Shown: positions 11,789-17,332 of the stretch, one piece after another
How the letters are laid out: each line of letters opens with the position of its first letter
How positions within the stretch are numbered: the first letter of the stretch is position 1
Assembly: GCF_001697225.1 (NCBI RefSeq)
Contig: NZ_CP014671.1
Coordinates: forward strand, 1,736,001 to 1,800,000
DNA length: 64,000 bases
Reading direction: 5' to 3'
Origin: Immundisolibacter cernigliae
GTDB taxonomy: Bacteria; Pseudomonadota; Gammaproteobacteria; Immundisolibacterales; Immundisolibacteraceae
Notes under the pieces: model-generated
Database searches by the model: none
What the model saw: only the letters and a program-made list of their open reading frames with translations
Told to the model about the DNA's origin: nothing
Translations under genes and position numbers: made by a program

Positions 11789-14700
11789 TCAGAACTTGCC
11801 GTAGTAGCCTTCCTTGAGGGCGTCGAACAGGTTGGCGGCGCTGTGCAGCTCGCCGTCGTATTCGATTTCTTCGTTGCCCTTGGCCTCGATGACGGTGCCA
11901 TCTTCCAGCTCGAAGCGGTAGGTAGTGTTTTCCAGGTCCTTTTCCTTGACCAGCACGCCCTGGAAGGCGGCCGGGTTGAAGCGGAAGGTGGTGCAGCCTT
12001 TCAGACCCTGGTCGTAGGCGTACAGGTAAATGTTCTTGAAATCCTCGAACGGGTAGTCCGTGGGCACATTGGCGGTCTTGGAGATGGACGAGTCGATCCA
12101 GCGCTGCGAGGCGGCCTGGATGTCGACGTGCGCCTTGGGGGTGATGTCCTCGGCGGTGATGAAGTAGTCCGGCAGTTGCTCGGCCGGGTCGGCGCTGCCC
12201 GGGATGGCGCGCGGGTTGACCAGGTGGCGGTAGGCCAGCAGCTCATACGAGAACACGTCCACCTTTTCCTTGGTCTTGCGACCCTCGCGGATGACGTTGC
12301 GGAAGTAGTGGTGGGCGAAGCTGGGCTCGATGCCGTTGCTGGCGTTGTTGGCCAGCGACAGGGAGATGGTGCCGGTCGGCGCGATGGAGCTGTGGTGGGT
12401 GAAGCGGGCGCCGCGCTGGGCAATGGCCTCGATCAGGTCCGGGCGCACGCCGCCGACGCGCTGCATGTAGCGGCTGTAGCGGGCCAGCAGCACGCGGCCG
12501 GGCAGCTTGTCGCCCAGCTTGTGGCCGTCGGCGGTCAGTTCCGGGCGCTTGCGCAGCATGTCCGGTGTGATCTCGAACACTTCGTCCATGATCGGCGCCG
12601 GGCCTTTTTCCTCGGCCAGTGCCACGCCGGCCTCCCAGCCGGCAATGGCCATTTCGCGCGACACGGCGTCGGTGAATTCCAGCGACTGGGCGTCGCCGTA
12701 GCGCCGGCCGAGCATGGTCAGCGTGGAACCCAGACCCAGAAAGCCCATGCCGTGACGGCGCTTGCGGAAGATTTCGTCCCGCTGCTGCTGCAGCGGCAGG
12801 CCGTTGACCTCGACCACGTTGTCCAGCATGCGCGTGAACACGCGCACCACGTCGCGGTATTGGTCCCAGTCGAAACGCGCCTCGGGCGTGAACGGCGCCT
12901 CGACGAAGGTGGTGAGGTTGATCGAGCCCAGCAGGCAGGCGCCGTAGGGGGGCAAGGGCTGTTCGCCACAGTTGTGCGCGTAGAGGCCGTTGGCGTCGAA
13001 GGCGTTGATGCCGGGCACCTGCACGTCGTACACCGCGTGCACGCCGGCGTCGGTGATGCTCTCCACGCGGGCGGTGAAGCGCTCGCGGTTCAGGCTGCGG
13101 TGGTAGCGGGCCAGGGACTGATCCAGACGCGCGGCCTTGTCGCTGTCGGCAAAGCCGACGAGTTGCGCGAACACGGCCAGGTTCTCGCCGCTGATGGCCA
13201 GCTCATGCTGGGCCTGCGTGGCGTACTGCTGCTGGCCGCCCTTGCCGTCGGGCAGCAGCGTGCTACCTGCGGCGCGGCGGTTGCGATACAGCCGCGAGAC
13301 GATGCCCAGGCGCAGCAGCATGCGCTGCGCGGCCTCCAGCTGCGGCAGGTCCGACTGTGCCAAACGCACGCTGACGCCCTTGTCGTGGCTGCCCTGAACC
13401 GAGCCGTCGGCATCGAACAGGCCACGCAGGAAGCCGCGCTGGAAGGCGCTGGAAGCCCGCTCCATGCGCGGGGTGATGCGCTTGTTACCGGGCGCCATGC
13501 CGACTTCGTTGGCCAGGTCCCGGATGGCGGCGGTGGACAGGCGGTGTTCGTTGCGGCCCGGCACTGCCGACCAGCCGGCGAAATCGGCACGGTGCGTGAG
13601 CGTTCGCGCGGCGGCCAGAGCCTCGGCCATCAATGCGCGCGTGCCGTGGGGCAATTCGCCCGGGGTACCGTTGGCTACGGCGGCAGGCTGCCACACGGAC
13701 AGCACGGCCTTGTCAGCCTTGAGGGTGCCGTCCCCCATCAGCAGACCCAGCAGGTAGCCCTGCTCGCGGGTGTATTCGCCCGGCCATTGCGGCGCGGCAC
13801 GGTGGTCGTGCAGCACCACGCGGTCACCCGCTTGCAGTTCACCGGCGGCGCACCATTCGGTCTCGCAGGCGTAACGTGTGAAACGCGACACGCGCAGCAC
13901 GCGGTGATCGGCAGTCAGAGTCAGACCATAGCCTTCCGTGGTTTGCAGCCTGACCACCGGCTTGTCGGCAGTCTTGAAGAATCCCTCGGGGCCGGTGCTG
14001 TGATCCTGCCCGTTGACGCGCGCCAGGAAGGGCGTGCCGATCAGGTCTGCCACCTGGCGCGGGCCGGCCGCGGTCTGCACCCAGGTGTCGGCCGTCACGC
14101 AGGGGTTGGTGGCCCGGATGTTCTCGCAGAACCAGTTGTTGTTTTCCTCGTTGGCCTTGTCGACCAGGATGAAGCCCGGCTCGGCGTAGTCGTAGGTGGA
14201 GGTCATGATCAGGTCCCACAGCCGGCGCGCCTTGATGGTCTTGTAGACCCGGCAGGCGACCAGGCCCTGGTCGTTGACGATGTAGCCGCGGTGGGTGGGC
14301 CATTCGCGCCAGATGATGTTGTCGGCGCTGTGCACGTCGATGCCGTCGGCGGCGGCCTCGTGGCTGGCAACCGGGAAGGCGAGCTGCCAGTCGCTGCCGG
14401 CCTTGACCGCTTCGATGAACTCGCGAGTGACCAGCAGCGACAGGTTGAACTGGCGCAGGCGACCGTCCTCGCGCTTGGCGCGGATGAAATCCACCACGTC
14501 CGGGTGGCCGACGTCGAAGGTGGCCATCTGCGCGCCGCGCCGGCCGCCGGCCGACGACACGGTGAAGCACATCTTGTCGTAGATATCCATGAACGACAGC
14601 GGCCCGGAGGTGTACGAGCCGGCGCCGGTCACGTAGGCGCCGCGCGGACGCAGGGTGCTGAATTCGTAGCCGATTCCGCAGTTGTGGATCACCAGCAGGC

Positions 14701-16390
14701 CGGCGTTGCCGGCCAGATAGTTGTTGTGTTTCTCGACCGTGAAGTCGTAGAAGGTTTCGGGCAGATCCAGGCCGCGCTCGATGGCCTCGACCGGGCGCAG
14801 ACAGCGGGCGAAGTCGATCAGCGGCGCAAGGGCCGGGAAGCGCTGCGCCCAACGATTCAGCCAGATGCGGCTGACGACTGCCTGGCGGTGGTAGCCGTGA
14901 TAGAAGCCGAGCCGCTGACGTTCCTGGTGGCCAAGCTCGCCCTCCAGGGTGGCCAGCGCTGCGTGCAGGTCGGCTGGCATGACGTAACGGTCGTACTGAC
15001 CGGCTTGGCTGGCGTGGTCCTGAATACGCTGGCGCTTGCCACTGTCGGCCATATAGGCCGCCAATGCGTCCAGGAAGGCCGAGTCGCTGATTTTCAGCAT
15101 GGCGCCGCCGCTGTCGCGCACCGTGTGGCCGTTGTAGTCGTGCTCGCGCGGCTGGCGCACGGTGAGCCCGGCGTGGACACCGAACAGGCCAAGCAGGGCC
15201 TTCAATTCCGCGGCAAACACGGTGTTTTGCGTGGCCAGGGTGACGCTGCCACGCTCGCGGCAGACTGTGCCGTCGGTGTCGATCAGGCCGGCCAGGAATG
15301 GCAGGAAGTGGCGCTCGGGATGGCTCACGATCCAGTCCGGCACGCGCAGGTGGGCGGTCTTGGCGCCGACCTGCCAGTCGATCAGTTCAGCCGCCCGGCT
15401 GGCGGCGAAACTCGCCACGGCAAAGTCCCACACCGGCGTACCGTTGCGGGTGCTGGTGGCCACCACTTGCGCGCGGCTGCCGCAAAAGGCCTGAAAGAAC
15501 GCGGCATAGCGCTCGACCACCTCGCGCTCGGCAGCGCGAATCTTGAACACCAGCCGCCGGCCCAGGGCGGCCGCGCGGTGCTGCCAAGCGCTGCGCGTCG
15601 GCCGGTAGCTGTGGCGTTTTTCGTAGGCGCTGCCATCGCCCAGATGTGCGCCGGCAAACCAGGCTTCCTGCTGCGCCTGCGCGTCGGCCCGCCAGGGGAA
15701 GCAATGCTGCACCAGCGCATCCGACATCCGGACTTCGTCGGCGCGCTGGTAGCTCAGGGCACCGTCCCGGTACACCAGCACCGGGTGGCGGATCGAGGTT
15801 TTCAGGGCCACGCCGTTGGCGCGCAGTTCGATGTTGTCTGCACGCGGCACGTGTGTGGTCAGGTGGCGCTCGATACGACGCATCTGGAAGCGCCGGGCGC
15901 TGCGGTCGTAGGCCAGGATTTGGGCGTGCTTGCCTTGCACCGCCTGCTGGGCGCTGACCAGACCCTGGTCCGTGAACACCCAGGTATCGGGCGCGACACA
16001 GCCGGCTTTCAGTGTCAGCCCGGCCTCGTGGACCTTCTGCAGGATGTCGTCCATCGAGTCCTCGATGGTGCCCGACACGGTGCAGTTGATGGTGGAGGTG
16101 GCCGGCTTGTGCTCCAGCGCGCCGGCGTTGGAGGTGATGCGGCCGGCCGGGATGGCGCCGCGGCGCAGCGCCCACAGGAAGCGTTCGTACCAGTGTTCGC
16201 GCAGGTCCGGCGCTTCGGCGTCGGCCAGGGCGCGCGCCACACGCTGGTAGGTCTCGTCCACGGTGCGGTCGATGACCGTGCCGTCCTTGGCCTTGAGGCG
16301 GTATTTCTTGTCCCAGATGTCCAGCGAGGCCGGCTGGACGGGCACGTCTGCGTTACGCGCAGCTGCGTGAATGGCGACCACCTTGTTCAT
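11789..16390 (-). CDS. nrdJa: Class II ribonucleotide reductase catalytic subunit NrdJa, with two inteins
   Basis: The precursor is 1,533 residues. Removing intein 1 (residues 131-570) and intein 2 (764-1140) leaves 716 residues, a usual size for NrdJa. The enzyme makes deoxyribonucleotides using adenosylcobalamin. Active-site residues: C103 in NCTVSG and C1152 in ACLLGSINL as the redox pair, and the NPCGE motif split by intein 2, giving N762, radical cysteine C1141 and E1143 after splicing. Both splice junctions have Cys at position 1, Asn at the end and Cys at +1. Because intein 2 sits directly before the radical cysteine, unspliced protein should be inactive. A promoter and an NrdR-like box lie upstream. 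Confidence 0.96.
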   Translation of the reverse strand: MNKVVAIHAAARNADVPVQPASLDIWDKKYRLKAKDGTVIDRTVDETYQRVARALADAEAPDLREHWYERFLWALRRGAIPAGRITSNAGALEHKPATSTINCTVSGTIEDSMDDILQKVHEAGLTLKAGCVAPDTWVFTDQGLVSAQQAVQGKHAQILAYDRSARRFQMRRIERHLTTHVPRADNIELRANGVALKTSIRHPVLVYRDGALSYQRADEVRMSDALVQHCFPWRADAQAQQEAWFAGAHLGDGSAYEKRHSYRPTRSAWQHRAAALGRRLVFKIRAAEREVVERYAAFFQAFCGSRAQVVATSTRNGTPVWDFAVASFAASRAAELIDWQVGAKTAHLRVPDWIVSHPERHFLPFLAGLIDTDGTVCRERGSVTLATQNTVFAAELKALLGLFGVHAGLTVRQPREHDYNGHTVRDSGGAMLKISDSAFLDALAAYMADSGKRQRIQDHASQAGQYDRYVMPADLHAALATLEGELGHQERQRLGFYHGYHRQAVVSRIWLNRWAQRFPALAPLIDFARCLRPVEAIERGLDLPETFYDFTVEKHNNYLAGNAGLLVIHNCGIGYEFSTLRPRGAYVTGAGSYTSGPLSFMDIYDKMCFTVSSAGGRRGAQMATFDVGHPDVVDFIRAKREDGRLRQFNLSLLVTREFIEAVKAGSDWQLAFPVASHEAAADGIDVHSADNIIWREWPTHRGYIVNDQGLVACRVYKTIKARRLWDLIMTSTYDYAEPGFILVDKANEENNNWFCENIRATNPCVTADTWVQTAAGPRQVADLIGTPFLARVNGQDHSTGPEGFFKTADKPVVRLQTTEGYGLTLTADHRVLRVSRFTRYACETEWCAAGELQAGDRVVLHDHRAAPQWPGEYTREQGYLLGLLMGDGTLKADKAVLSVWQPAAVANGTPGELPHGTRALMAEALAAARTLTHRADFAGWSAVPGRNEHRLSTAAIRDLANEVGMAPGNKRITPRMERASSAFQRGFLRGLFDADGSVQGSHDKGVSVRLAQSDLPQLEAAQRMLLRLGIVSRLYRNRRAAGSTLLPDGKGGQQQYATQAQHELAISGENLAVFAQLVGFADSDKAARLDQSLARYHRSLNRERFTARVESITDAGVHAVYDVQVPGINAFDANGLYAHNCGEQPLPPYGACLLGSINLTTFVEAPFTPEARFDWDQYRDVVRVFTRMLDNVVEVNGLPLQQQRDEIFRKRRHGMGFLGLGSTLTMLGRRYGDAQSLEFTDAVSREMAIAGWEAGVALAEEKGPAPIMDEVFEITPDMLRKRPELTADGHKLGDKLPGRVLLARYSRYMQRVGGVRPDLIEAIAQRGARFTHHSSIAPTGTISLSLANNASNGIEPSFAHHYFRNVIREGRKTKEKVDVFSYELLAYRHLVNPRAIPGSADPAEQLPDYFITAEDITPKAHVDIQAASQRWIDSSISKTANVPTDYPFEDFKNIYLYAYDQGLKGCTTFRFNPAAFQGVLVKEKDLENTTYRFELEDGTVIEAKGNEEIEYDGELHSAANLFDALKEGYYGKF
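12971..14101 (-). other. Intein 2 of NrdJa (377 residues, LAGLIDADG endonuclease)
   Basis: Residues 764-1140 of the precursor. It begins CVTADTWVQT (block A) and has LTADHRVL (block B, with the TxxH pattern). Two LAGLIDADG-type motifs, YLLGLLMGDGTL and FLRGLFDADGSV, mark the homing endonuclease. It ends VYDVQVPGINAF...LYAHN before Cys+1. Splicing residues Cys1, block B His, penultimate His and terminal Asn are all present, so it looks competent. The insertion point is NP|CGE, immediately before the thiyl-radical cysteine. The endonuclease acidic residues also look intact. Confidence 0.94.
14681..16000 (-). other. Intein 1 of NrdJa (440 residues, LAGLIDADG endonuclease)
   Basis: Residues 131-570 of the precursor. 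It begins CVAPDTWVFTDQG (block A) and has KTSIRHPVLVY (block B, with the TxxH pattern). LAGLIDADG motifs are seen at AGAHLGDGSA and FLAGLIDTDGTV. It ends TFYDFTVEKHNNYLAG...LLVIHN before Cys+1. Penultimate His and terminal Asn are present. The host site is GLTLKAG|CGIGYEF, a different conserved segment from the intein 2 site. The two inteins differ in length and show little sequence similarity beyond the motifs, so they probably arrived independently. Confidence 0.94.
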
Positions 16391-16475
16391 GGATGCTCAG
16401 ACTCCCTGGGTCGTTATGCGTGCGAGGATGCCAACGCGAGCGCGGCTGCCGGTGGCCTTTGGCCAGGGCTATAAA

Positions 16476-16491
16476 ACACAACATCTTGTGA
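16476..16491. promoter_or_regulatory. NrdR-like box next to the nrdJ promoter
   Basis: The 16-base ACACAACATCTTGTGA has CACAA/TTGTG arms separated by four bases, as in NrdR boxes of gammaproteobacteria. It lies just downstream of the predicted -10, overlapping the likely transcription start, where a bound repressor would block polymerase. Identification is by pattern only; no nrdR gene is in the window. Confidence 0.6.
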
Positions 16492-16501
16492 AGGCCGATG
16501 G

Positions 16502-16530
16502 ACATTACGCGCGCCGGGTTGGGACGTCAA
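16502..16530 (-). promoter_or_regulatory. Sigma-70 type promoter for nrdJa-nrdJb
   Basis: On the minus strand there is a -35 TTGACG (16525-16530), a 17-base spacer and a -10 TAATGT (16502-16507). Transcription would start near 16495, leaving a leader of about 105 bases. An AT-rich block further upstream (about 16545-16580) could act as an UP element. Confidence 0.6.
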
Positions 16531-16640
16531 CGGCTGCCAAGAATATTTTTTTATCTTTTAAATAACAGATAGTTAAAATCTCTAATGCAATGGCCTTCAA
16601 GAGTTTTCAAGCCTCCACTTGGGGCCGCTTAAATTCCTTT

Positions 16641-16660
16641 CATCACAATATGTTGTGATG
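16641..16660. promoter_or_regulatory. Second NrdR-like palindrome
   Basis: CATCACAATATGTTGTGATG is a perfect inverted repeat with 8-base arms and contains the same CACAA-N4-TTGTG core as the box at 16476. The two centres are 167 bases apart, near 16 helical turns. It lies between the nrdJ promoter and the yrfG stop and could alternatively act as a short hairpin for yrfG. Confidence 0.5.
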
Positions 16661-16675
16661 GGTCTTGCAGTCGAT

Positions 16676-17332
16676 TCAGGTCTGTGGCAGCAGCTGGCGG
16701 AAGCTTTCGAGCATCGGCAGGTCGGGCAGGAATTGCGGCTCGGCGCGCGAATCCGGCTGCGCGATGGCCAGCAGGTGGCCGATGCCGTAGTCGCGCGCCG
16801 CGCGCAGCACGTGCGCGTTGTCGTCGACCAGCAAGGTGCGTGCCGGGTCGAAACCCTGCTGCGCTTGCAGGCGTGGCCAGAAGTCCGGCGCTTCCTTGGG
16901 CAGGGCCAGATCGTGCGCGCAGATGATCTCGTCCAGCCACGTCGCAAGCCCGGTGCGGGCAAGCTTGAAATCGAGCCCGCTGCGGTGCGAGTTGGTGACC
17001 AGCACGCGCCGCTTGCCGGCCGCGCCCAGCCATTCCAGGAATTCGGGCACCTGCGGGCGCAGGCCGATCAAGTGCGCCAGCTCGGTATTGAGCGCCGCCA
17101 CGTCCAGTTCCAGCAGCTCGCTCCAGTAGGCCATGCAGTAGAAATCCAGCGTGCCGCGGCGGCTCTCGGCCTGGCCGTGGATGACGCTGCGCGCCTCGTG
17201 CAGGCCCAGTCCGCGCCGCTCGCCCCAGGTGCGCGGCAGGTGCTCGAACCAGAAGGCGTTGTCGTAGTGCAGGTCCAGCAGCGTGCCGTCCATGTCCAGC
17301 AGCACGGTGTCGATGCAGCTCCAGTCGATCAT
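16676..17332 (-). CDS. yrfG: GMP/IMP nucleotidase, HAD family (YrfG)
   Basis: A 218-residue HAD-superfamily phosphatase. Motif I is DMDGTLLDLHYDN, with the nucleophile Asp; motif II is the Thr/Ser in VLVTNSH; motif III includes the Lys in LALPKEAPDFW; motif IV is LLVDDN. The sequence and length match YrfG, which dephosphorylates GMP and IMP. The start overlaps the stop of the upstream yggU gene (ATGA), so they are translationally coupled. It ends the yggS-proC-yggT-yggU-yrfG operon. Confidence 0.9.
   Translation of the reverse strand: MIDWSCIDTVLLDMDGTLLDLHYDNAFWFEHLPRTWGERRGLGLHEARSVIHGQAESRRGTLDFYCMAYWSELLELDVAALNTELAHLIGLRPQVPEFLEWLGAAGKRRVLVTNSHRSGLDFKLARTGLATWLDEIICAHDLALPKEAPDFWPRLQAQQGFDPARTLLVDDNAHVLRAARDYGIGHLLAIAQPDSRAEPQFLPDLPMLESFRQLLPQT

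Follow-up and report, generated by a model that had tools for sequence, protein, structure and literature searches.

Widely spaced NrdR-like boxes and a mid-loop IHF-like site suggest repression by DNA looping at gammaproteobacterial nrdJ promoters

Introduction

Looping repressors that are aided by a bending protein are already known. In the lac and gal systems, two operators flank or lie beside the promoter at helically phased distances, and the gal loop contains the bending protein HU. The repressor NrdR has until now been treated as a protein of two boxes that stand 15-16 bp apart, their normal separation, or one turn more (PMC12051234). NrdR depends on paired boxes that an integer number of turns separates, its affinity for single boxes is 530-1000 times lower, and it has been surveyed with a limit of at most 50 nt between boxes (PMC12051234). 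At the Pseudomonas aeruginosa nrdJ promoter, mutation of NrdR box 2 mimics an nrdR mutant (PMC4409342). A limited literature search that included the available portions of PMC12176259, PMC9110341, PMC4409342, PMC5343134, and PMC12051234 returned no report of NrdR acting via a long loop.

Here we describe an nrdJ upstream region of Immundisolibacter cernigliae in which two NrdR-like boxes lie on either side of the promoter. An initial annotation of this region had suggested that such a distance could imply looping, and we extend this suggestion with an analysis of nrdJ upstream regions from the same class.

Materials and Methods

The window is the whole stretch of DNA that was analyzed, 64,000 nucleotides of contig NZ_CP014671.1. 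From the class to which it belongs we assembled 158 nrdJ upstream regions representing 82 families. The source matches came from one search in which 215 of 370 genomes matched (with places listed for part of them) and another in which 30 of 56 matched. One genome with 187 bases upstream (G217) and second nrdJ-like matches per genome were left out, and regions with fewer than 200 bases upstream or at most 50% identity were also dropped (among them those of G004, G011, G012, and G055). A set of named contigs contributed 80 of 589 loci, of which 77 were usable, three beginning inside the gene, and 76 entered the layout count. We counted a region as long when its boxes stood 140-215 bp apart, which places G182 (135) and G045 (227) just outside this class. 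The genomes are kin by descent, and thinning by family reduces, but does not remove, the effect of shared descent.

Results

The gene that we propose to be regulated is nrdJ (11789..16390, minus strand). It encodes a ribonucleotide reductase of class II, the adenosylcobalamin-dependent type, which contains two inteins and matches the profile TIGR02504 at 517 bits against a cut-off of 400. The two inteins carry LAGLIDADG-type endonuclease domains; nrdJ frames are equally long in G001 and some other relatives and short in others. Searches of the genome gave a single match to PF02867 and none to the class I small subunit (PF00268) or the class III enzyme (PF13597), and nrdJ is the sole ribonucleotide reductase gene detected. 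Both boxes lie in the 285-bp gap between nrdJ and an upstream gene in the same direction (16676..17332, minus strand), which encodes a GMP/IMP nucleotidase-like protein of the HAD type, likewise a nucleotide-pool enzyme. The genome also encodes NrdR (TIGR00244, 190.7 bits; cut-off 124.65), whose sequence has the residues D15, R17, and RRRR that are named in PMC9110341, and IHF alpha (149.4 bits; cut-off 111). The best match to IHF beta, at 112.8, is slightly below its cut-off of 115.

The proximal NrdR-like box, CACAACATCTTGTG, occupies positions 16477-16490, which corresponds to about +6 to +19 if transcription starts near 16495, as we infer. The distal box occupies 16641..16660 with its core, CACAATATGTTGTG, at 16644-16657 and has a predicted center about -155 from the same start; neither box is assigned a strand. 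The initial annotation had placed two CACAA-N4-TTGTG sites 167 bp apart, and the coordinates bear out this start-to-start distance, which leaves 153 bp between the two 14-mers. The distal site had also been called a perfect 20-base palindrome. This is not the case: its 8-base arms, CATCACAA and TTGTGATG, are palindromic, but the TATG center is not self-complementary. The site is found in relatives, being present in G001 and G007 and carrying one mismatch in G002. Exact CACAAN4TTGTG has two matches in the 3.24-Mb genome, both of them the nrdJ boxes; because the pattern read backwards also gives two matches, the count by itself is at chance level. We set aside two other readings of the palindromes, a terminator hairpin and a known RNA family, given that no hairpin was called within 16380-16700 and nothing reached the gathering score within 16350-16720.

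The core reported in the published NrdR survey, C.[AT].A[AT].[AT].G, fits both boxes. They precede a gene for a ribonucleotide reductase, and NrdR is encoded in the genome; they thus deserve the label NrdR-like that they had been given. That they belong to a different regulator is compatible with an assignment made from sequence, but the fit of the published core, the nature of the downstream gene, and the weak partners that accompany single boxes at the classic NrdR spacing (described below) make this very improbable. The 153 bp between the boxes falls outside the separations of the classic tandem type, 14-17 or 24-27 bp, and the earlier remark that the spacing is unusual agrees with the normal separation given in PMC12051234.

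A matrix built from strict boxes detects 1.44 sites per region in the 158 upstream regions, compared with 0.002 in shuffles. Two strong boxes stand 143-214 bp apart in 78 of these regions, drawn from 42 families, and the wide pair is thus a recurrent layout of gammaproteobacterial nrdJ. Four regions have two strong boxes within the 28-45 bp range, at the classic distance of 31-32 bp, and the remaining layouts are one strong box (52 regions), none (20), or other (4). When the 52 single-box regions are re-read allowing weaker partners, 32 become classic, 13 long, and 7 unclear. The strong sites of the 76 named-contig regions fall into 19 long, 2 classic, 43 single, and 12 without a box.

Chance palindromes do not explain these pairs. 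Among 370 genomes of the class, 35 have strict pairs (CACWAN4TWGTG) at a distance of 145-175 bp and 16 have them at 176-206 bp, whereas the reversed-pattern control gives 0 and 4 of 370, respectively. Of the 51 genomes with a strict long pair, 50 have it upstream of nrdJ, as judged from nrdJ places or, where these were unlisted, from tblastn. The one pair located elsewhere (G128; L151, 1501-1671) has boxes 157 bp apart, one of them without an AT center, and a DnaA-like box inside. Strict classic pairs counted genome-wide (distance 18-48) are found in 6 of 370 genomes and in 8 of 370 with the control pattern and are hence uninformative. In a phylum sample of 397 genomes, many of them of the same class, only the genome of the window and G720 match at a distance of 153-183 (control 11/397), and any conclusion about absence outside the class reaches no further than this sample and a single strict pattern. 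The G720 cores have no AT center, and tblastn places no nrdJ N-terminus at the locus.

The single boxes and the long pairs differ in their neighbors. Positions at the classic offset from the box, or one turn beyond it, hold a weaker partner in 35 of the 52 single-box regions, compared with 5 of 52 at control offsets, and the same test on long pairs gives 8 of 78 for the proximal box (control 3) and 8 of 78 for the distal box (control 9). The published core likewise identifies a classic-spacing partner in 8 of 78 long regions and in none at a control spacing. A single motif thus occurs at this gene in two geometries, with weaker partners beside most single boxes and mostly without them in long pairs. 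The idea that a long region consists of two classic pairs with weak partners fails for most regions, though 8 of 78 have such a partner. These eight are also what can be cited for regarding the two boxes as separate operators, the proximal one serving the nrdJ promoter and the distal one some other transcript, made from a second nrdJ promoter or as a separate RNA of the gap; each box would then be occupied alone or with a weak neighbor. We consider that arrangement quite unlikely given the partnerless majority and the helical phasing of box distances presented below; moreover, in the window no further core was found near either box, no promoter was called in the gap, and the upstream gene, which has the same direction, ends 15 bp before the distal box arm. 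One upstream region (L260, from G317) has three boxes, namely a long pair 179 bp apart and, at a distance of 32 bp from its proximal member, a weak partner of the classic kind, and is perhaps a form between the two geometries.

When the long regions are aligned on the -35 element, they share TTGACAG, a 17-bp spacer, and TAnnCT. TTGACA is matched at at least five of six bases in 72 of the 78 long regions, compared with 7.4 in shuffles, and the proximal box begins 39-43 nt past the start of the -35 element in 64 of these 72. The set-wide alignment assigns to the window the -35 hexamer TTGACG (16525..16530, minus strand) and, across a 17-bp spacer, the weak -10 hexamer TAATGT (16502..16507, minus strand). 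A generic promoter scan does not call the nrdJ promoter of the window because this -10 is weak. The proximal box begins 12 nt beyond the end of the candidate -10, so that the predicted start region overlaps it, which agrees with the overlap first proposed from the window. The putative operators lie on either side of the promoter in the set and likewise, with a weak -10, in the window.

The DNA between the boxes contains a candidate site for the bending protein IHF, which bends DNA by about 160 degrees (PMC9820253). In the window this IHF-like site, TAACAGATAGTTA (16563..16575, plus strand), lies near mid-loop at about -74 and has one mismatch to the consensus WATCARNNNNTTR (8 of 9 specified bases); the exact consensus does not occur in the loop of the window, and a site of equal quality appears in 6.1% of shuffles of that loop. 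With a matrix trained on the other families, 62 of 78 long regions have their best IHF-like site on the strand opposite nrdJ at loop fraction 0.40-0.53, compared with 2 that have it on the other strand, and the trained motif reads WWWCAATNNGTTA, near the IHF consensus. A motif score above 9 is reached by 61 of 78 long and 12 of 52 single-box regions, the matrix having been trained on the long set. The plain IHF consensus places 34 of 78 best sites mid-loop on one strand; 300 permutations gave a mean of 10.1 and a 95th percentile of 17, the largest reaching 35. Exact consensus matches occur in 18 of 78 loops, and scrambled patterns occur in 1, 1, 10, 4, 3, and 2; the 10 matches of one scrambled pattern fall at the same mid-loop place as the IHF-like site and are perhaps variants of it. 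Among the 24 named loci of the long class, 21 have no 24-mer in common with the first set; the mid-loop site is present in the same orientation in 19 of the 21. The DNA that separates the IHF-like site from the -35 element includes an AT-rich stretch.

Across the genomes, the distances from box to box, which by eye cluster near 156, 167, 178, and 189, show helical phasing (R 0.478 over the 78 regions, for periods of 10-11.5 bp), a property that a single genome could not reveal. Phasing is retained for 70 distinct family-distance values (R 0.525, p 0.0005 against jitter, the floor of the test) and when one region is taken per family (n=42, median p 0.0099, again the floor). The phasing is sharper when measured from the IHF-like site. 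Proximal arms, from this site to the box center, measure 72-75, 82-86, 92-96, and 105-107 bp with single values of 90 and 117, and distal arms measure 70-74, 81-85, and 93-97 bp with single values of 63, 76, and 104. The proximal arms give R 0.746 at 10.90 bp (bootstrap period 10.4-11.3) and the distal arms R 0.770 at 11.15 bp (bootstrap period 10.65-11.8), both with p 2e-4, the floor of the test. With one value per family (n=35), R is 0.773 for proximal and 0.791 for distal arms. Both arms of the named loci give R 0.81, but the 19 loci belong mostly to one phase class (92-96 with 81-85) and support the place of the site more than the period. Of 33 arm differences of at least 4 bp between members of one family, 20 deviate by no more than 2 bp from a multiple of 10.9, which is little above the approximately 46% expected.

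Phased arms to either side of a bend site are the trace expected of a loop that is clamped by NrdR and bent by IHF, and they support the looping that was initially suggested for this spacing. The same measurements bear on a different role for IHF, that of an nrdJ activator whose bend would bring upstream DNA into contact with RNA polymerase; the proximal box would then block the start and the distal box, bound separately, would disturb the IHF wrap, with no bridge between NrdR molecules. On the proximal side the phasing from IHF-like site to box (R 0.725) nearly equals that to the promoter (0.634 and 0.678), the bootstrap is not decisive, and the two cannot be separated; the AT-rich stretch noted above also suits an activator. 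The distal arm, which in the proposed loop contains no promoter, is phased too, which favors the loop over IHF acting on RNA polymerase alone, and a role for singly bound boxes sits poorly with the 530- to 1000-fold weaker binding cited above from PMC12051234. We therefore consider the activator role unlikely.

A DnaA-box-like sequence, TTATCCACA, lies inside 5 of the 78 loops, compared with 0.2 in simple shuffles (G306, G123, G225, and others; loci L206, L216, and L209), and none was seen in the loop of the window. These boxes raise a possible link between nrdJ and replication.

Discussion

We propose, with a probability of roughly 0.75, that nrdJ is shut off when its promoter is folded into a DNA loop that is clamped by NrdR and bent by IHF. 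At high dATP, one NrdR tetramer would grip the proximal box with one Zn-ribbon pair and the distal box with the other; because the boxes are 16 turns apart, a single tetramer could occupy both only by means of a loop. IHF bound near the loop middle would introduce a sharp bend that allows two arms of approximately eight turns to run side by side, such that the boxes meet on the right helix faces and the promoter, located in one arm, is closed off. When dATP falls, NrdR would change its oligomeric state and release the DNA, and nrdJ would be transcribed. Read directly from the genomes are the two boxes and how widely they are kept at nrdJ, the phasing, a mid-loop motif of fixed orientation, where the promoter lies across the set, and the genes for NrdR and IHF alpha, with a candidate for IHF beta; NrdR and IHF binding, bridging by one tetramer, and repression are the interpretation that we place on them, and the dATP switch is borrowed from published NrdR work.

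We lean toward a broader proposal, namely that class II ribonucleotide reductase is under the control of a widespread NrdR-IHF-NrdR repressosome across much of the Gammaproteobacteria, with a dATP-sensing tetramer closing loops of approximately 145-215 bp. The spread of arm lengths would then record the helical repeat in the cell (approximately 11 bp), and IHF, together with the DnaA boxes that some loops contain, could couple the supply of dNTPs to growth phase and replication. If the loop is real, 78 of the 158 gammaproteobacterial nrdJ promoters sampled have a layout beyond the reach of the published 50-nt search (PMC12051234), NrdR belongs among the looping repressors, and control of dNTPs involves a bending protein.

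Several described NrdR systems share features with this locus. The classic sites of Escherichia coli nrdHIEF and nrdDG, with boxes 15-16 bp apart, have the same core, a ribonucleotide reductase promoter, and an integer number of turns from one box center to the other (PMC12051234, PMC12176259), but the boxes of the window are 153 bp apart and enclose a promoter and an IHF-like site. The Streptococcus pneumoniae sites, with 25-26 bp spacers, also accommodate extra DNA between boxes in a unit of approximately one turn; they have one extra turn compared with approximately 13 in the window, and no bend site is reported for them (PMC12051234). Listeria monocytogenes nrdAB, where one box pair is proximal and another distal, resembles the window in having an additional NrdR site farther upstream than that at the promoter, although each of its sites is a full close pair and each site in the window is a single box (PMC12051234). 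The P. aeruginosa nrdJ promoter is similar in that it serves a class II enzyme and has two reported NrdR boxes, of which box 1 overlaps the -10 and box 2 abolishes repression when mutated, a comparison that covers the enzyme class, the number of boxes, and the effect of the mutation (PMC4409342).

Outside the NrdR family, the lac and gal loops are the closest parallel. The nrdJ loop that we propose would differ from them in using a repressor of a different family, a Zn-ribbon/ATP-cone protein that senses dATP and ATP, and in having an IHF-like site in place of HU.
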